From positions 372,001-436,000 of the forward strand of contig NC_013939.1 in assembly GCF_000010985.1 (NCBI RefSeq): 64,000 nucleotides of DNA, given 5' to 3'. The first letter of the stretch is position 1. Each line of letters starts with the position of its first letter. Shown piece after piece: positions 48,731 through 57,144 of this stretch. A model generated the notes under the pieces. The model was not told the DNA's origin and ran no database searches. It saw only the letters and a program-made list of their open reading frames with translations. Made by a program: the position numbers and the translations under genes. Source of the DNA: Deferribacter desulfuricans SSM1. GTDB lineage: Bacteria > Chrysiogenota > Deferribacteres > Deferribacterales > Deferribacteraceae.

Positions 48731-50668
48731 TTAATACCCCACAGCAGTCAAGATGAGATTTAGTATTATTCCGGTGAAAAATGCAAATGGTATAACAGTC
48801 AAAAATATAACCATAGCTGTTTTAAAACCTCTTTCTTTTATCATCATTGAAAACTGTGCAATACAGGGGACAAACAGAGTTAATATTACACTAGCAACAA
48901 TCAAATTTTTTACTGTTAATGTATTCTGAATATCGTACAATCCTGCAGCACCAAAATCCCTTCTAAAGAATCCGTAGATAAAAATATCTCCCATCTGTTT
49001 TGGGAGTCCTGCCATTTTTGCTGGAAATGAAAGTATAAAAGATAATACATCGAATAGTTTGGTAAGTTTTCCTATCCATATCAGAACTGATGCAAGTATA
49101 AAAAGTGGAATAACTTCAATTGCATACCATTTTAATCTTGAAAAAGTTTTTAGAAATACATTCTTAATACTTGGCATTCTAATTGGTGGAACTTCCATGA
49201 AAAAGCTGGCACTACCCCCTTTTGTATATTTATTTAAAATGAAGCCACTTATTAAGAAAACTACTAAGATAGTTATAAACCAAATTATAAGTGCTGAAAA
49301 ACTTTTATCAAAAAGTCCAAGAATTACACCCAGTTGAGCAGAGCATGGTATTGTCAAAGCAAGCAAAAATGTAACAAGCAATCTTTCCCTTTTTGTTTCA
49401 AGGGTTCTTGTTACAACTGTGGCCATTGTACCACAACCTAATCCTAAAATTAGAGGGATTACAGACCTCCCACTTAATCCAATCTTTTTCATTGATTTAT
49501 CAAGAATGATGGAGAGTCTTACTAAATAGCCTGAATCTTCTAATAAAGAAAACATAAAGAAAAAGGTTGAAACTACAGGTAAAACGATTGCGATTGCATA
49601 TCTTAAGCCTAAAGTTATAATTCCGTAGTCACCAGCAAAAAGATTGAAAAATATGGTATCTCCTAAAAACTTATGGAAAAGCTGATTTATGTAGGGGTTT
49701 AAACTTTCTTCAAAAATTTTTGTTTCTATGAAATCCACAAGAGTTCCAGCGCCAAATTGCCCAACAAACTTGTAAAATCCAAAATACAGAATCAATAAAA
49801 CAGCTAAAAAACCAAAAGTTGGGTGCAAGGTTATTTTATCAAAAAAGGAACTTATTTTTGACTGTTTTTTTGAGCCGTTTGAATAAAAATGTTCTGCACA
49901 GAGTTCTTGTGAAAGTTCTAATCTTTTTGAAGCTATTTCTATGTGGAGATTATCTGATAAACTATCAATTATTTCTTTTATTTTATCAAAGTTAGTTTCC
50001 CTTTCTTTTACAAACTGTATTGTATCTTTATCTTTTTGAATTAAAAGAAGAGCTATACTCCTCTTTGAGATTGGATAGCTACTATTTAATTGCTTAATTA
50101 TTTTTTCTATCAGTTGCTCTATATTATTGCTGTATTTAATGTTTATCGGCTGAAAATTATATCTTCCTTCAACTACACTCAAAATCCTAGCCATCAAATT
50201 TTCTGTCCCTTTGTTTTTAATAGCGGCAGTTTTAACTACAGGGATTCCAAGGTCATGCTCTAAATGGGTAATATTAATCTCCATCCCTTGGCATTCGAGC
50301 TCATCATACATATTTAATACAAGTATTGTGGGTAGACCCGCTTCGATAAATTGGAATGTAAGTGGAAGCATCCTTGCTATATTCTTTGCGTCTACAACAT
50401 GAAGAATACAATCATAATCATTTTGTAAGATAATATCCTTTGTGACTTTTTCTTCTTCAGTAATCGTGTTAAAATTGTAAAAACCTGGGGTATCTATAAA
50501 TTCCACCTCGTGGTGTGGACCGATGTTAGTTTTACCTTTAAATATTGAAACAGTTGTTCCAGGATAGTTTGATACAGAGGCATATTTTTTCGTTAGGTTA
50601 TAAAAAAGCGCACTTTTACCAACGTTTGGATTACCTACTAAAAGCACTTTATATTCTTTCTTATGCAT
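48731..50668 (-). CDS. feoB: Ferrous iron transporter FeoB
   Basis: A protein of about 645 residues. The N-terminal G domain has GNPNVGKSALF (P-loop), YPGTTVS, DTPGFYNF and LNMYDE. The middle is a GDI-like helical domain. The C-terminal membrane part has two Gate motifs: PLILGLGCGTMATVVTRTLETKRER (about 410-435) and FVPCIAQFSMMIKERGF near the end. It is somewhat shorter than E. coli FeoB (773), as in many anaerobes. I chose the ATG with GGAGGT 4-5 nt upstream; an upstream TTG would give four more residues. Imports Fe2+ across the inner membrane. Confidence 0.94.
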   Translation of the reverse strand: MHKKEYKVLLVGNPNVGKSALFYNLTKKYASVSNYPGTTVSIFKGKTNIGPHHEVEFIDTPGFYNFNTITEEEKVTKDIILQNDYDCILHVVDAKNIARMLPLTFQFIEAGLPTILVLNMYDELECQGMEINITHLEHDLGIPVVKTAAIKNKGTENLMARILSVVEGRYNFQPINIKYSNNIEQLIEKIIKQLNSSYPISKRSIALLLIQKDKDTIQFVKERETNFDKIKEIIDSLSDNLHIEIASKRLELSQELCAEHFYSNGSKKQSKISSFFDKITLHPTFGFLAVLLILYFGFYKFVGQFGAGTLVDFIETKIFEESLNPYINQLFHKFLGDTIFFNLFAGDYGIITLGLRYAIAIVLPVVSTFFFMFSLLEDSGYLVRLSIILDKSMKKIGLSGRSVIPLILGLGCGTMATVVTRTLETKRERLLVTFLLALTIPCSAQLGVILGLFDKSFSALIIWFITILVVFLISGFILNKYTKGGSASFFMEVPPIRMPSIKNVFLKTFSRLKWYAIEVIPLFILASVLIWIGKLTKLFDVLSFILSFPAKMAGLPKQMGDIFIYGFFRRDFGAAGLYDIQNTLTVKNLIVASVILTLFVPCIAQFSMMIKERGFKTAMVIFLTVIPFAFFTGIILNLILTAVGY

Positions 50669-50686
50669 TAATACCTCCAATAAGTG

Positions 50687-50721
50687 AAAAGTTAGATATA
50701 TCTAACTTTTGTATTTGTCAA
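50687..50721 (-). promoter_or_regulatory. feoB promoter with overlapping 24-bp palindrome
   Basis: On the minus strand TTGACA (50721-50716) and TATCTA (50698-50693) are 17 bp apart. A palindrome with arms AAAAGTTAGATA / TATCTAACTTTT (about 50687-50710) covers the -10 element. TTAG…CTAA-type palindromes are typical of DtxR/MntR/IdeR-family metalloregulators. A repressor bound there would block RNA polymerase. The regulator gene is not in the window. Confidence 0.65.
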
Positions 50722-50751
50722 GATTTTTTCTGATTTCTTTAATAAAAAAGC

Positions 50752-50780
50752 TTTACATTTTATTATTTTTAAATTATATG
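50752..50780 (+). promoter_or_regulatory. trp operon promoter
   Basis: TTTACA (50752-50757) and TATATG (50775-50780) are spaced by 17 bp. The expected transcription start (about 50787) falls at or next to the ATG of the leader peptide, for which I see no Shine-Dalgarno sequence, so the leader message may be leaderless. It is divergent from the feoB promoter, 30 bp away. Confidence 0.55.
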
Positions 50781-50787
50781 TACTTGC

Positions 50788-50859
50788 ATGAAGGGTTCAA
50801 TAATTTTTAACATTTTAAAATCATTAAGAAATTGGTGGTGGCAGTTGATAGCAATATAG
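50788..50859 (+). CDS. trpL: trp leader peptide (three tandem Trp codons)
   Basis: A 23-codon frame starting at ATG 50788 and ending at TAG 50857. It encodes MKGSIIFNILKSLRNWWWQLIAI in three parts: a short hydrophobic start, then Arg-Asn and three consecutive Trp codons (50833-50841), then five residues. It is placed exactly as in classical attenuators: the Trp codons cover RNA segment 1, and the stop lies between segments 1 and 2. Stalling at Trp codons when tryptophan is scarce would free segment 2. No Shine-Dalgarno sequence is evident. Confidence 0.88.
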   Translation: MKGSIIFNILKSLRNWWWQLIAI

Positions 50860-50924
50860 TGCTGTTCTGCCACCATTAAAATATATTTGGGCCGTGTGGC
50901 GGAACAGCCACACGGCCTTTTTTT
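50836..50924 (+). terminator. trp attenuator (1:2, 2:3 and 3:4 hairpins)
   Basis: Segment 1 TGGTGGCAG (50836-50844) pairs perfectly with CTGCCACCA in segment 2 (50867-50875). Segment 2 CTGTTCTGCCAC (50862-50873) pairs over 12 bp with segment 3 GTGGCGGAACAG (50896-50907), with one G-U pair. Segment 3 GGCCGTGTGGC (50890-50900) pairs with segment 4 GCCACACGGCC (50907-50917), an 11-bp GC-rich stem with a 6-nt loop and a run of 7 T. So 2:3 and 3:4 are mutually exclusive, as in E. coli. Confidence 0.92.
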
Positions 50925-50937
50925 ATAACTATTCGAA

Positions 50938-50969
50938 GGCCGTGGGATTTAACTCACGGCCTTTTTTTT
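50938..50969 (+). terminator. Second terminator directly before trpE
   Basis: GGCCGTGGG (50938-50946) / CTCACGGCC (50953-50961) with a 6-nt loop and eight T. It lies 6 bp before the trpE Shine-Dalgarno sequence. Its 5' arm GGCCGTG can also pair with CACGGCC of attenuator segment 4 (50911-50917), so it can be disarmed when segment 4 is free. Confidence 0.85.
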
Positions 50970-50988
50970 ATGAATTTGGAGGTTTAAA

Positions 50989-52461
50989 ATGTTAAATGTA
51001 AATTTTAAGGAATTTGAAAAATTATCAAAAGAATTTAGACAAATCCCTATAATACGAGAAATCGTGGGGGATATTTATACCCCTATTAGTTTGCTCAGAA
51101 ATTTTTCCAATGAAAAATTTCTATTTTTGCTTGAAAGTGCAAATATTGATAAGAGTTTTTCAAGGTTTACCTATTTTGCAAAGACTGCGAAGAAGACACT
51201 AATTTTCAAAAAAGGGAAACTTTATTTAATTGATAAAGATGGGAAGAAAACAGAACTACTTGTAAATCCTATTGATTATTTAAACAGTGAAATGAACGAG
51301 TTTAAAGGTGCAAAATTTGAAAGTATTGGTGATTTTTGTGGTGGATATGTGGGCTTTTTTGGTTATGAAATGGCAAATTATATGGGGATTTTAAGAGAGA
51401 AATTGTATGAAGGTGATGAATCTCAACTTGGACTTGGATACATTGATGAGTTTTATGTTTTTGATAACAAGTTAGGTAAATTTTATTCGGTTTGCATTGC
51501 AGATACCTCAAATTCTTTAGAGGATGAGTTTAGAAGATGTGTAAAAAGAACCCTTGAGATGGTAGATGAGTTACATGTTGTTAATTTTGACCTCACGAAA
51601 TCTGACAGTTTTATAAATATTAAAAAAGATTTTGAAAAAGATGATTTTATTGAAACTGTAAAAAAGGTTAAAGATGAAATAATTAGAGGCGAAGCAATTC
51701 AAATTGTCATTTCCAATAAATTTGAAGTGGATGGATTTGTAAACCCTGTGAGTTTCTATAGAGCGTTAAGAAATATTAATCCATCCCCTTATATGTTTTA
51801 TTTTAAATTTGATGATTTTATTGTGTGTGGTTCATCCCCTGAAATTCATTTAAAAATCAAGGATAATAAAGCCACTTTAAAACCTATTGCCGGCACATAC
51901 CCAGTAGAAAAAGATATCGAGGATGTGAAAAGAAAATTAATATCTGATGAAAAGGAGATTTCTGAGCATTTAATGCTTTTAGACCTTGCAAGAAATGACC
52001 TTTATAGAGGGTGTAAACCTAAAACGGTAAAAGTCAATGAGGCGTTTGTTCCGGAAGTTTATTCACATGTAGTGCATATTGTGTCGGAGGTGGAGGGGGA
52101 AAAAAAAGAGGGCATTTCAAATTTAGATTTATTTGCAATGACATTTCCTGCAGGGACTGTTTCAGGTGCTCCAAAGGTGAGAGCTATGGAGTTGATAAAT
52201 CAGTATGAAAAAAGTCCTCGAGGTTTTTATGCAGGATGTGCTGGTTATTTCTCTTTTGCAGGGGATATGGATACATGTATCACAATTAGAAGCGCCGCTT
52301 TTAAAAATGGGAAAATGATTTTAAGAGCAGGAGCAGGTATTGTCTATGACAGCGATCCTGAAAGGGAATATTTTGAAGTGGAAAATAAGCTGGGAGCTCT
52401 TTTTAAAGCAATTGAGGTAACTAAGAATATGGAGGAAAGGTATGTTTTTACTGATAGATAA
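50989..52461 (+). CDS. trpE: Anthranilate synthase component I TrpE
   Basis: A 490-residue chorismate-using enzyme. LLES (FLFLLESANID, near residue 47) belongs to the Trp feedback site. Catalytic-domain landmarks: IQIVISNKFEV, NPSPYMFYFKF, SSPEIHLKI, PIAGTYPVEKD, LMLLDLARNDLYRG, TFPAGTVSGAPKVRAMELI and RAGAGIVYDSDPEREYFE. TTTGGAGG lies 7-8 nt before the ATG. First gene of the complete trp operon; overlaps trpG by 20 bp. Expression is set by the attenuator upstream. Confidence 0.97.
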   Translation: MLNVNFKEFEKLSKEFRQIPIIREIVGDIYTPISLLRNFSNEKFLFLLESANIDKSFSRFTYFAKTAKKTLIFKKGKLYLIDKDGKKTELLVNPIDYLNSEMNEFKGAKFESIGDFCGGYVGFFGYEMANYMGILREKLYEGDESQLGLGYIDEFYVFDNKLGKFYSVCIADTSNSLEDEFRRCVKRTLEMVDELHVVNFDLTKSDSFINIKKDFEKDDFIETVKKVKDEIIRGEAIQIVISNKFEVDGFVNPVSFYRALRNINPSPYMFYFKFDDFIVCGSSPEIHLKIKDNKATLKPIAGTYPVEKDIEDVKRKLISDEKEISEHLMLLDLARNDLYRGCKPKTVKVNEAFVPEVYSHVVHIVSEVEGEKKEGISNLDLFAMTFPAGTVSGAPKVRAMELINQYEKSPRGFYAGCAGYFSFAGDMDTCITIRSAAFKNGKMILRAGAGIVYDSDPEREYFEVENKLGALFKAIEVTKNMEERYVFTDR

Positions 52462-53005
52462 TTACGACTCATTTACTTACAACCTATACGCACTTTTTGA
52501 TAATGCTGGTGTGGATGTTGATATAATTAAAAATGATGAGTTTGTGGATGCATCAAAATATCATGGGTTAATAATTTCTCCGGGGCCTTCAAATCCGGAA
52601 AACTCAGGTAATTCTTTAAAATATATTGAAGAATATAAAGGGAAACTCCCCATTTTTGGTGTTTGCCTTGGGATGCAATGTATAGCCTATTACAAAACAG
52701 GGACTTACAGACAGGCTAAGAGCATTAAACATGGCAAAATAGACAAAATTATCAAATCAAAAGATTCATTAATTTTAGAAGGGTTGCCTAACAAGTTTGA
52801 AGCTGTTCGTTATCACTCTCTGGCAGTCAATGTAGCTGAAGAGTTTGTTGTTGCAAGAGGGGAGAGTGATGGTGAAATTATGGCTATTGAATTTAGAGAT
52901 GAATTGCTCTTTGGTGTTCAATTTCATCCAGAATCGATAAAAAGTGAATATGGGGACAAAATCGTTCAAAATTTTATAAAAATTTGTGGAGGGTGTCATG
53001 TATGA
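52442..53005 (+). CDS. trpG: Anthranilate synthase component II TrpG (glutamine amidotransferase)
   Basis: A 187-residue class I glutamine amidotransferase. LIDNYDSFTYNL opens the protein. The nucleophile is C75 in GVCLGMQCIAYY, and the His-Glu pair is in VQFHPESI near the end. It supplies ammonia to TrpE. It stands alone, not fused to TrpD as in E. coli. Overlaps trpE by 20 bp and trpD by 8 bp. A pabA-like dual role is possible if no other pabA exists. Confidence 0.95.
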   Translation: MFLLIDNYDSFTYNLYALFDNAGVDVDIIKNDEFVDASKYHGLIISPGPSNPENSGNSLKYIEEYKGKLPIFGVCLGMQCIAYYKTGTYRQAKSIKHGKIDKIIKSKDSLILEGLPNKFEAVRYHSLAVNVAEEFVVARGESDGEIMAIEFRDELLFGVQFHPESIKSEYGDKIVQNFIKICGGCHV

Positions 53006-53990
53006 TGCTGTAAAAAAACTTTTTAATGGAAAAGATATGAGTTTAGCTGAGTCTTTAAAAGTTTTCGAGGGGATAATGAAAGGTGAGTTTGATGATGATA
53101 TAGTCAGTGCTGTTTTAATTGCTCTAAAAATGAAAGGGGAAACTGCAACAGAGATATACGTTGCAGCAAAAGTTCTTAATGACCTTAAGTTTAGATTTGA
53201 ACACTCTAAAAGGCCATGTATTGATACTTGTGGTACTGGTGGTGATGGTAAAAGCTGCGTCAATGTATCTACTGCTGTGTCTATTATTTTGTCGTCTCTT
53301 GGTCATAATGTGGTTAAACATGGTAATGTTGCTATAAGTGGAAAAGTGGGATCTGCTGATATTTTGGATATGTTAGGTATTCCTGTTAAGTTATCAGTTG
53401 ATGAAATGCGTGAATTTTATGAAAGAAATGGTTTTGTGTTTTTGCTTGCACCGATGTTTCATCCTGCGATGAAAAATGTGGCTCAGATCAGAAAAAAACT
53501 TGGTGTTCCTACTATCTTCAATCTTTTGGGGCCGCTGGTAAACCCTGCTGATCCAGAATATCAAATCATTGGGGTAGGTAGTAAAGATAAACTCGAGGTT
53601 TACGCAGAAGCTGCTAGTAAATTTAAAAATAAAAAGTTTATAGTTTATTCGTCCTTAGATGGATATGATGAGGTTTCAACAAAAGAGCCAACAAGGTGCT
53701 ATAAGATTATTGATGGGCAAATATCAGAATTTGTATTAAAGCCTGAAGATTTCTTTGAACCTTTTGATATGCCTTCTGTTTCATCAAAAGAAGAGGCTAA
53801 AAGACTGTTTTTAGAGGGCATTATTGGAGAAAATGAAAAAATTTCCATACTTTTTGCAATCAATACTGCACTTGCTTTGCATTTAATTGATAATAGTTCA
53901 ATTGATGACGGTTTTGAAAAAGTGCTGCAACATCTGAAATCAGGCAAAGTAATTGAAAAATTAGAAAGTTTAAAAGGGGTAAGTGCTTAA
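52998..53990 (+). CDS. trpD: Anthranilate phosphoribosyltransferase TrpD
   Basis: A 330-residue enzyme joining PRPP and anthranilate. The PRPP site CGTGGDGKSCVNVSTA, KHGNVAISGKVGSADILDMLGI and FLLAPMFHPAMKNVAQIRKKLGVPTIFNLLGPLVNPA are typical. The ATG at 52998 has GGAGGG 5 nt upstream, which is why I prefer it to the upstream TTG frame start. Overlaps trpG and touches trpC. Confidence 0.96.
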   Translation: MYDAVKKLFNGKDMSLAESLKVFEGIMKGEFDDDIVSAVLIALKMKGETATEIYVAAKVLNDLKFRFEHSKRPCIDTCGTGGDGKSCVNVSTAVSIILSSLGHNVVKHGNVAISGKVGSADILDMLGIPVKLSVDEMREFYERNGFVFLLAPMFHPAMKNVAQIRKKLGVPTIFNLLGPLVNPADPEYQIIGVGSKDKLEVYAEAASKFKNKKFIVYSSLDGYDEVSTKEPTRCYKIIDGQISEFVLKPEDFFEPFDMPSVSSKEEAKRLFLEGIIGENEKISILFAINTALALHLIDNSSIDDGFEKVLQHLKSGKVIEKLESLKGVSA

Positions 53991-54727
53991 TGTTTTTAGA
54001 AGAGGTTTATCTGAAAAAAATTGAAGAGGTTAAAGGTCTAAAAGTAGAAGGTGTTAGAAATAAAAGGATTATACCTTTTGGTATTAACCTTCCAGAGAAG
54101 AGGGTTATAGCTGAAGTTAAGCAGGCTTCTCCATCTTTAGGCCTTATAAAAAATGTAGATGTTTGTTTACAGGCAAAAAGATATGAAAAAGGTGGTGCAG
54201 CAGCTATAAGTGTTCTTACTGATAAATATTACTTTAATGGAAGTTTTGAATTTTTAAACAGAATTAGCAAGGAAGTGAGCCTTCCCATATTGTGTAAAGA
54301 TTTTATCATCGATAAAAAACAGGTGGATATGGCCTATATGAATGGTGCTGATGTTATCCTTTTGATAGTTAGTCTTCTTGATGATAAATCGTTGTTTAAT
54401 CTTTATGAATACGCAAAAAGCCTTGGATTAGAAGTATTAGTGGAAATTCATGAATTTGAAGAATTTAAGAGAGTTGAAAATATGGGTATTAAATTTTTAG
54501 GGGTAAATAGCAGAAATTTGAAAACTTTAAAAATTGATAAAAGCTATGCCTTAAATGTGTTAAAAAATATAGATGGTGAATTTGTAAAGGTAGCTGAAAG
54601 TGGAATTGAGACTATTGATGATGTAATGATGTTTAGAAATGTAGGAGCTGAGATGTTTTTAATAGGGACTACCCTTATGAAGTCAGAAAGTCCTGAAGAA
54701 TTGATCAGGAAATTTAATCAGGTGTAA
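53990..54727 (+). CDS. trpC: Indole-3-glycerol-phosphate synthase TrpC
   Basis: A 245-residue TIM barrel. Family landmarks: VIAEVKQASPSLGLI, AISVLTDKYYFNGSFEFL, LPILCKDFIIDKKQVDMAYMNGADVILLI, EVLVEIHEFEEF, LGVNSRNLKTL and KVAESGIE. Single-domain form, with TrpF separate. The start overlaps the trpD stop (TAATG). Confidence 0.96.
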   Translation: MFLEEVYLKKIEEVKGLKVEGVRNKRIIPFGINLPEKRVIAEVKQASPSLGLIKNVDVCLQAKRYEKGGAAAISVLTDKYYFNGSFEFLNRISKEVSLPILCKDFIIDKKQVDMAYMNGADVILLIVSLLDDKSLFNLYEYAKSLGLEVLVEIHEFEEFKRVENMGIKFLGVNSRNLKTLKIDKSYALNVLKNIDGEFVKVAESGIETIDDVMMFRNVGAEMFLIGTTLMKSESPEELIRKFNQV

Positions 54728-54728
54728 T

Positions 54729-55271
54729 ATGTTTATCAAAGTATGTGGGATAACCACTTTTGAGCAGATAGAATGGGCTATTGAGCTTGGATACAGTGCA
54801 GTAGGTATAGTTTTTCACCCTAAGAGTAAAAGGTATGTGGGCTATACAAAAGGTATCAAACTTGCAGATTATGCAAAAAATAAAATTTTAACAGTGTGTG
54901 TTGGTATAGATTTTGATGAAGTAAAAGATGTGTATGATAATTTTGATTATGTACAGCTTTATAACTATAGAGAGCTTGATAATCTAATTTATGGGACTGC
55001 TGATAAACCAGATAACGAAAAGTTTAAATATCTTATTTTTGATAGAAGTATGGGGAAAGGGGTTTTTGAATGTGATTATCCTGAATGGGTTTACGACTAT
55101 ACAGATAGATTGCTAGTATCTGGTGGTTTGACACCTGAAAATGTGGGTAACGTTTTTGAAAAGATTATACCAGCTGGTGTTGATGTATCAAGTGGTGTGG
55201 AAGTGGATTATGGTGTGAAAAGTTTTGAAAAGATGAAGTTATTTATAGAGAAAATTAAACAACATATCTGA
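54729..55271 (+). CDS. trpF: Phosphoribosylanthranilate isomerase TrpF
   Basis: A 180-residue TIM barrel, slightly shorter than usual (about 200). The catalytic Cys is in [14 protein letters not shown] (C6), with [12 protein letters not shown] and the phosphate loops [12 protein letters not shown] and [20 protein letters not shown]. The shortening is in the middle of the barrel (between [10 protein letters not shown] and YLIFDRSMG), but the active-site motifs are kept. One bp after trpC. Confidence 0.93.
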
Positions 55272-55279
55272 GGTGTTTT

Positions 55280-56455
55280 ATGAATTATAATAGATATTTT
55301 TATGGGGAGTATGGTGGCCAATTTGTAGCGGAAACTCTTATACCGCTCCTCGATGAACTTGAAGAAAATTTTATTAAATACAAAGATAATAAAAATTTTA
55401 ATGATGAATTAGATTATTTGTTAAAAAATTATGCAGGCAGACCAACACCTGTTTATTTTGCAAAGAGATTATCTGAAAAGTATGGAGTTAATATTTATCT
55501 AAAAAGGGAAGATTTACTTCATACAGGAGCTCATAAAATAAATAACACTTTAGGGCAGGCGTTGCTTGCAAAATACATGGGGAAAAAGCGTATTATTGCT
55601 GAGACAGGAGCTGGACAGCATGGAGTTGCCACTGCAACAGTTTGTGCTTTACTTGGGATTGAATGTACAGTGTATATGGGGAGTCTTGATGCTAAAAGAC
55701 AGAGAATAAATGTAGAGCGGATGAAGATGCTTGGTGCAAAAGTGGAAGTGGTAGATTTTGGTAGTCAAACTTTGAAAGATGCTGTAAGTGCAGCAATAAA
55801 AGATTGGGTAACCAATGTTGATACTACTCATTATCTCATTGGCTCTGCAGTTGGGCCATACCCTTTTCCAGAAATCGTGGCACATTTTCAGTCAGTAATT
55901 GGATTAGAAGCAAGAAAGTTTTTCATTGAAGAGGTTGGTAAATTGCCTGATGTTGTTGTTGCCTGTGTTGGCGGAGGAAGTAATGCGATAGGTATTTTTA
56001 GAGGTTTTTTAGAGGATGAAGATGTAAGATTGATTGGTGTAGAAGCGGGTGGTTTATCAGAAAAGGTTGGGGAGCACGCAAGTAGTATCTCTTATGGCAA
56101 AAAAGGGGTTTTTCAGGGGAGTCTTTCAAAGGTATTGCAAACAGAATTTGGGCAGATTGCAAGTGTCCATTCTGTATCTGCTGGACTTGATTATCCAGGC
56201 GTTGGGCCTGAGCATGCCTATCTATTTGATATAGGTAGAGCAGAATATTATCCAATAAATGATAAAGAAGCAGTAGATGGTTTCTTTGAACTTACAAGGT
56301 TAGAAGGGATTTTACCAGCTTTAGAATCTAGTCATGCAATAGGGTATGTGATGAAGCATCATAAAGAGTTTATTGGTAAAAATGTGTTAATCAATTTGTC
56401 GGGGAGAGGGGATAAGGATTTGCATATTATAGAAGATTATGTGAGGGGAATATGA
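55280..56455 (+). CDS. trpB: Tryptophan synthase beta subunit TrpB
   Basis: A 391-residue PLP enzyme. The PLP lysine is K86 in [17 protein letters not shown]; the phosphate loop is [10 protein letters not shown], and E-T-G-A-G-Q-H-G binds the substrate carboxylate. The motif [17 protein letters not shown] is canonical for TrpB1 (not TrpB2). It condenses indole with serine and forms the alpha2-beta2 complex with TrpA. Overlaps trpA by 4 bp. Confidence 0.97.
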
Positions 56456-57144
56456 AAGGTGTTTATATTGTTCTAAGCTATCCAGATAAAGAAACATTTC
56501 TTGAAGTAATAAATTTTATATCGAACTATGACGGTATAGATTTTATAGAGATAGGTTACCCTTTTAATGATCCAGTTGCTGATGGGCCGGTTATAATGGA
56601 TGCAATCAATCAGGTTTATGATAAAGTTACTTTTGAAGATTTAAAAGAGGTATTGAGGATAATAAATAAAAGAAAAAAAGTATATGTAATGACATATTCA
56701 AATATTGTTTATAGCTATGGATTAAAACAGTTTTCTGATGATTTTGGTTTTTTACTAGATGGTCTTATAATTGCCGATTTGCCAAATAGGATGCATGACT
56801 TTTTTTATCAAAAAGGTTTATCTGTAGAGATTATTCCCTTTTTAACACCAACGAGTAGAAAGGAAGATATTTTATCAATTAACAATTTGAAAGGTGATTT
56901 TGTATACTATGTTGGGACAAAGGGGACAACTGGGGTTATGGGTGACTTAAATTTTAATGAAAATAAGATTAGTGATATAAAAAAGTTGGTGAATAAAAAA
57001 GTAGTTTACGGATTTGGCATTAAGACAAGAGATGATATATATGATATTTTAAAATTTTCTGACGGTGTAGTGGTAGGAACAGAAATAGTAAAAAGACAAA
57101 AAGATTTTGAAAAATTCAAGAGTTTTATCAAAAATACGTTTTGA
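56452..57144 (+). CDS. trpA: Tryptophan synthase alpha subunit TrpA (short N-terminus)
   Basis: A 230-residue TIM barrel. Both catalytic acids are present: E33 in [17 protein letters not shown] and D44 in the same motif (E49 and D60 in E. coli). [14 protein letters not shown] and [12 protein letters not shown] form the phosphate site. The protein is about 30-35 residues shorter than usual; about 16 are missing at the N-terminus, where helix 0 normally closes the barrel, and loops are trimmed. The start overlaps trpB, so the short start looks real. It probably depends on TrpB for stability. Confidence 0.93.

Follow-up and report, generated by a model that had tools for sequence, protein, structure and literature searches.

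A trp leader with two terminators in Deferribacter desulfuricans: a probable six-segment relay under one leader peptide

Introduction

The trp attenuator of E. coli carries Trp codons in segment 1 of a leader whose segments pair as 1:2, 2:3 or 3:4, the last of these being the terminator ahead of the operon; this operon, having a repressor, tolerates a read-through of 10-15% (Elf and Ehrenberg, PMC1183508). The his attenuator of Salmonella and E. coli is built as a longer chain, with stem-loops AB, CD and EF, of which only EF is followed by a run of uridines, and an alternative stem DE; six segments answer to one stalled ribosome, an alternative pairing is relayed along the chain and the last hairpin either forms or does not (PMC10989985). 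On the argument of Elf and Ehrenberg, the additional hairpin of his serves to reduce basal read-through in an operon that has attenuation as its sole control (PMC1183508).

Other described leaders share single features with the one reported here. The trpL transcript of Sinorhizobium meliloti begins with the ATG and is leaderless (PMC7298713), and trpL1 of Streptomyces lividans is also transcribed leaderless (PMC8079986); both are attenuators with Trp codons that are transcribed from the leader AUG, and the accessible parts of the two accounts do not describe a linked second terminator, that of S. lividans mentioning "two hairpin structures". Two tandem terminators together with a potential anti-terminator are found in the rimP leader, in a tandem form present in several Gammaproteobacteria, which the extracts of its description do not present as a leader-peptide attenuator (PMC2965389). 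Finally, two attenuation steps in series have been reported for mgtCBR (PMC3641672) and for mefA/msrD, where the arrangement was termed a double-lock system (PMC10314930). As far as these partial texts go, mgtCBR uses two leader open reading frames that respond to different signals (PMC3641672) and msrD has a leader peptide of its own (PMC10314930), whereas in the locus described below both terminators seem to answer to a single leader.

That locus lies in the genome of Deferribacter desulfuricans SSM1, in a stretch of 64,000 nucleotides (NC_013939.1, positions 372,001 to 436,000) which is referred to as the window and whose own numbering is used throughout. A preliminary description, made from the letters of the window, had recognised a complete classical trp attenuator at 50788-50924. 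One open-access library, which lacks most subscription papers, was searched; it yielded no account of a single leader peptide governing tandem terminators, and no match for Deferribacter in combination with attenuation and a leader peptide.

A conserved attenuator upstream of trpE

The forward strand of the window carries the operon trpEGDCFBA (50989-57144). Its first gene, trpE (50989-52461), has a Shine-Dalgarno sequence, GGAGG, at 50978-50982 and found TrpE relatives in other genomes, and the reading frames 3' of it were recognised by eye as trpG, D, C, F, B and A. On the other side of the leader a divergent gene (48731-50680, minus strand) looks FeoB-like by eye, and the perfect palindrome AGTTAGATATATCTAACT just upstream of it (50690-50707) is a possible metal-regulator site. 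The leader reading frame, trpL, spans 50788-50859 on the forward strand and encodes a peptide of 23 residues, MKGSIIFNILKSLRNWWWQLIAI, with three consecutive Trp codons at 50833-50841 and its stop codon at 50857-50859.

For comparison, 50 genomes of the phylum were considered, among which 31 have a TrpE match and 24 of these a match of at least 50% identity; the leader could be read in 23 of the 24, that of G022 (L013) being dropped as its contig begins 45 nt before trpE. In all 23 readable Deferribacterales leaders, window included, a short reading frame that includes three or more consecutive Trp codons stands 5' of the trp genes. The triple Trp codon noticed in the preliminary description is thus a conserved feature, and the comparison with related genomes that it had proposed finds the attenuator in every readable relative.

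The RNA from 50788 to 50924 folds with -54.8 kcal/mol (z = -7.2), a value equalled by none of 200 dinucleotide shuffles. In the minimum free energy (MFE) fold segment 1 (50832-50844) pairs with 50867-50879, the 3' part of segment 2 (50861-50879), over 13 bp. By reading, the 5' part of segment 2 (50861-50873) can instead form a 13-bp 2:3 antiterminator with 50896-50908 in segment 3 (50889-50908). The 3:4 hairpin is a terminator stem of 12 bp (50889-50918), in which the arm 50889-50900 of segment 3 pairs with 50907-50918 of segment 4 (50907-50919), and it runs into T residues, so that terminator 1 with its U tract covers 50889-50924 on the forward strand. Terminator 1 is one of two terminator-like sites found between 50500 and 51100, against 0.3 expected. 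These pairings had already been proposed, with lengths of 9, 12 and 11 bp that prove slightly too short. In the window they are mutually exclusive and stand in the right register to the leader peptide. Across the relatives, the 3:4 hairpin is present in 23 of 23 leaders, and it covaries on a sequence-only MAFFT alignment (A2); the same alignment, with segment 2 misaligned by MAFFT, gave no usable covariation signal for 1:2 and 2:3. On these features it is nearly certain that the element is a ribosome-mediated trp attenuator upstream of trpEGDCFBA, ordinary in kind.

The start of the leader transcript

A promoter, TTTACA (50752-50757) and TATATG (50775-50780) separated by a spacer of 17 bp, precedes trpL on the forward strand, and its -10 hexamer ends 7 nt 5' of the leader ATG, just as the preliminary description had stated. 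Taken alone, this pair is no stronger than chance in the window (a generic scan found 2 promoters where 2.6 were expected, and did not list this one). Equivalent -35 and -10 elements are nevertheless conserved in all 22 leaders that have a promoter on the contig (L005, which has none, was left out of this count), and in each of them an in-frame ATG stands 5-8 nt past the -10 hexamer. Because of this spacing the predicted 5' untranslated part is about 0-2 nt long, which leaves no room for a Shine-Dalgarno sequence. The conserved geometry makes a leaderless start of trpL probable, as had been suspected from the window. The accompanying remark that this would be unusual for an attenuator is not supported, since S. 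meliloti trpL and S. lividans trpL1 are both reported as leaderless (PMC7298713, PMC8079986), and with these precedents a leaderless trpL is nothing new in kind.

Transcription might instead begin farther upstream and give the leader an untranslated region, the -10 beside the ATG being fortuitous. The window does contain, 21 nt upstream of the ATG, a pair (TTAATA-16-TATTAT) that scores slightly above the adjoining one (8.6 against 8.1), and in two more distant leaders, of the spirochaete locus L047 and of G039, an SD-like sequence lies in an untranslated stretch. Against this, the promoter that adjoins the ATG, with its spacing of 5-8 nt from the -10 to an in-frame start codon, is the best-scoring one in 21 of 22 leaders and the second best in the window. 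An upstream start, which would be compatible with the relay proposed below, is rather unlikely.

A second terminator, apparently linked to the first

Between terminator 1 and trpE sits a second intrinsic terminator with its U tract (50935-50969, forward strand), made of segment 5 (50935-50946) as 5' arm and segment 6 (50953-50964) as 3' arm; lying beyond the end of the element as first delimited at 50924, it had been missed. With it included, the region 50788-50972 folds with -77.2 kcal/mol (z = -9.2). A strict scan of 464 kb of the genome found 30 terminators and only this one tandem pair. Each of the 23 readable Deferribacterales loci with this trpE, window included, has a Trp leader and, behind it, two terminators separated by 10-31 nt, the second terminator of L008 and L015 having been placed by hand. 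Like 3:4, the 5:6 stem covaries on A2. Repeat-like insertions stand between terminator 2 and trpE in L035, L036, L018 and L021, and in genus g6 these could hold another promoter. A search with all 4227 families of Rfam release 15 gave no match above the gathering threshold in the window or in 12 further loci; the sub-threshold hits at 50740-51000 were mostly to unrelated sRNAs, and a known Rfam leader or riboswitch was set aside as an explanation.

The two terminators appear to be linked by a further pairing. Segment 5 contains AAGGCCGTG (50936-50944), exactly complementary to CACGGCCTT in segment 4 (50911-50919), a stretch made up of the 3' arm of terminator 1 and the first U residues; the window has this exact complementarity pattern, CACGGCCTT/AAGGCCGTG, a single time, and 100 shuffles did not produce it. 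In all 23 leaders, RNA running from segment 4 to segment 5 is predicted to fold into the 4:5 hairpin (-12.8 to -31.2 kcal/mol). The label of a complete classical attenuator is therefore incomplete: the four-segment core stands, and the second terminator, tied to it by 4:5, extends it to a chain of six segments.

On A2, 96.8% of the 4:5 cells are paired and seven of the nine pairs have changed on both sides, and none of 500 shuffles did as well in paired cells, in the number of pairs changed on both sides or in covariation score; the L008 row, misaligned in terminator 2 of A2, was kept in these counts and in those for 3:4, 5:6 and 3:6. A hand-anchored alignment, which dealt with L008 separately, gives changes on both sides in nine of nine pairs, the anchoring having been chosen with the pairing in view and favouring 4:5 for g13 and g6; four such pairs remain there once g13, g6 and f5 are removed. 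Examples are found in the g15 genomes, which have CACAGCC in segment 4 and GGCTGTG in segment 5 (two of the three retain a CACGG core in segment 6), and in L014, with CACGGCTTC in segment 4 and GAAGCCGTG in segment 5. When segments 4 and 5 were swapped among nine lineages, only 4 of 20,000 permutations were as good as the cognate combination, and over 144 choices of representatives (500 permutations each) the largest p was 0.004; these statistics are only indicative since the lineages are related. In g10 the cognate 4:5 ranks mid-range among non-cognate pairings.

Some complementarity (AAAGC/GCTTT) is common to all terminators, and the 28 others of the genome served to test whether chance likeness of this sort explains 4:5, an explanation that was rejected; of 756 unrelated pairs, 5.2% pair with -12 kcal/mol or better. 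Duplication of one hairpin would create complementarity as well, and 3:6 provides the control for it. On A2 this pairing has no clear excess over shuffles (142 of 500 for cells paired, 35 of 500 for covariation score), and its duplex is weaker than 4:5 in 20 of 23 leaders; in g13 and g6 it lies at the background of unrelated terminators (-5.6 to -7.9, against -13 to -18 for 4:5). That 4:5 covaries but the 3:6 control does not argues against mere hairpin duplication, which is insufficient as the sole cause.

A probable relay along six segments

The model that these pairings suggest would operate as follows. Transcription would start at the leader AUG, or within about 2 nt of it, and the message would be translated leaderless. 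With Trp-tRNA plentiful, the ribosome would leave segment 1 and reach or cover segment 2, allowing 3:4 to form, and most polymerases would be halted at terminator 1; for those that leak through, segment 4 would still be locked in 3:4, 5:6 would form and terminator 2 would stop most of the remainder, so that termination is multiplied. With Trp-tRNA scarce, the ribosome would stall on the three Trp codons, 2:3 would form and segment 4 would be left free; it would pair at once with newly transcribed segment 5, terminator 2 would be too late to fold and the polymerase would enter trpE. The new part of the system would thus be a six-segment relay in which one stalled ribosome controls two chained terminators, and on the present evidence we consider this reading likely.

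In fold predictions, a stalled ribosome was mimicked by releasing the RNA from a point 16 nt past the beginning of the first Trp codon. Released RNA that extends to the terminator 1 loop contains a 2:3 helix of at least 8 bp in 21 of 23 folds. For RNA that extends through segment 5, the MFE fold combines 2:3 with 4:5 and lacks 3:4 in 14 of 23 leaders, window included, and the equilibrium fold keeps 3:4 in the other nine (L005, five of g10 and three of g6). In the window the predicted barrier is 8.9 kcal/mol for escape from 4:5 into 5:6 (median 7.2) and 16.9 kcal/mol for escape from 2:3 into 3:4 (median 12.4). Given the lower barriers for leaving 4:5, the second step should be less tight, and relief of terminator 2 may therefore be partial. 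Genus g6 is the weak case: its three leaders have a very strong terminator 2 (-27 to -30 kcal/mol) and a 4:5 helix with 4-5 wobbles, whose mono-shuffle z is only -0.8 to -2.0 and whose predicted escape barrier is just 2.8-2.9 kcal/mol in two of the three genomes, and for these reasons the relay may not work there.

Two other readings were considered. The locus could be a classical four-segment attenuator with a backup terminator that is constitutive or weak; the two hairpins would then resemble each other through tandem duplication or conversion, without any role for 4:5. It is true that the hairpins are near copies of each other in several lineages and that 3:6 equals 4:5 in strength in L010-L012; copying nevertheless predicts that 3:6 should generally equal 4:5, which is contradicted by its weakness in most leaders and by its lack of clear covariation, and a strong unregulated terminator before trpE would hold the operon off under starvation. 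We consider this reading improbable, if less so than the next, in which the tandem hairpins mainly shape the released leader RNA, providing two alternative 3' ends and affecting its stability or action in trans. A precedent is rnTrpL of S. meliloti, leaderless too, which is reported to act in trans (PMC7298713). The covariation of 4:5 is not something that such a role predicts, and as the main explanation it seems very unlikely; it would be compatible with the relay.

Occurrence in other genomes

The seven genomes of the phylum with a distant TrpE all lack the tandem arrangement. In two of these, both Deferribacterales (L024 and L027), the leader peptide is replaced by GGTGGCACCGCG, which we take to be a T-box-like motif, about 100-250 nt upstream of trpE and below the Rfam gathering threshold. 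L026, of family f7 and also with a distant TrpE, has a Trp-containing leader, MKKFSLYLKPLFVSYFFSQSWRVLWWRFNA, with a promoter close to the ATG and, by eye, no clear terminator pair. The distant phylum member G039 (L034) has the leader MKYRVAVTLFSCSWRWWR, preceded by a Shine-Dalgarno sequence, on its trp operon; there the 3:4 hairpin lacks a U tract, 5:6 has one, and 2:3 (-14.0) and 4:5 (-13.6) can both form, so that this chain is possibly the plain his layout on a trp operon. Within D. desulfuricans itself, neither the region 5' of ilvD, behind which ilvB is positioned (L143, by eye), nor that before the second leuA-like gene (L138) has a leader with tandem terminators.

Of the 80 named TrpE loci that were surveyed, only four from Deferribacterota and L047, a spirochaete MAG, combine tandem terminators with a Trp leader. 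In the Spirochaetota order of L047, 37 of 46 genomes have TrpE, and 7 of the 30 loci read combine a Trp leader with tandem terminators, the other Trp leaders having a single one; the remaining seven TrpE genomes, for which there was no locus, lie outside this count, and L153, L156 and L166 have short flanks and are maybe out of register. All seven tandem leaders of the order form a 4:5 hairpin (-10.8 to -24.9 kcal/mol). A palindrome of the type GTTTCTATATATAGAAAC, likely an operator, lies at or near the trp promoter in L038, L039, L040, L045, L047, L050 and L056 of the Spirochaetota.

Comparison with known attenuators and significance

Set beside the E. coli trp attenuator, the locus has the same core on the same operon and differs in its terminator 2 with 4:5, in its leaderless geometry and in belonging to a phylum where TrpR was not found. 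With the his attenuator it shares the full chain 1:2/2:3/3:4/4:5/5:6 with 5:6 as a terminator (4:5 being weak in g6), and may also share attenuation as the only control and low basal read-through, as described for his (PMC1183508). It differs from his in its Trp codons, leaderless leader and phylum, and in the position of the U runs: his has one only after EF (PMC10989985), whereas here 3:4 and 5:6 are both terminators, and a terminator confined to the last hairpin is seen only in the relative G039.

No TrpR above the family cut-off was found in the 50 genomes of the phylum, which gave two sub-threshold matches; as a control, the profile was positive in 2 of 14 named genomes, E. coli among the two. 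Attenuation may therefore be the main control of this trp operon, another repressor being possible. A trp operon lacking TrpR, with a his-like chain whose middle hairpin is a terminator too, would fit the argument of Elf and Ehrenberg, and low basal read-through where TrpR was not found is the likely benefit of chaining two terminators. Somewhat more tentatively than the relay itself, we favour the view that one stall acting on two terminators in series would multiply termination in the off state with no corresponding loss in the on state. It would take the place of TrpR in providing dynamic range, both for the Deferribacterales and, in part, for one order of the Spirochaetota.

If this is true, there would be a second route to low basal read-through, in which the extra hairpin is a chained second terminator as opposed to the non-terminating hairpin of his. 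The relay would offer a compact test of how far a single ribosome stall propagates through RNA folding, and a natural two-lock design for leader-based regulators. For the phylum of Deferribacter, attenuation is now documented at the level of sequence, and the chained terminators may explain how a trp operon without TrpR could achieve a wide regulatory range.
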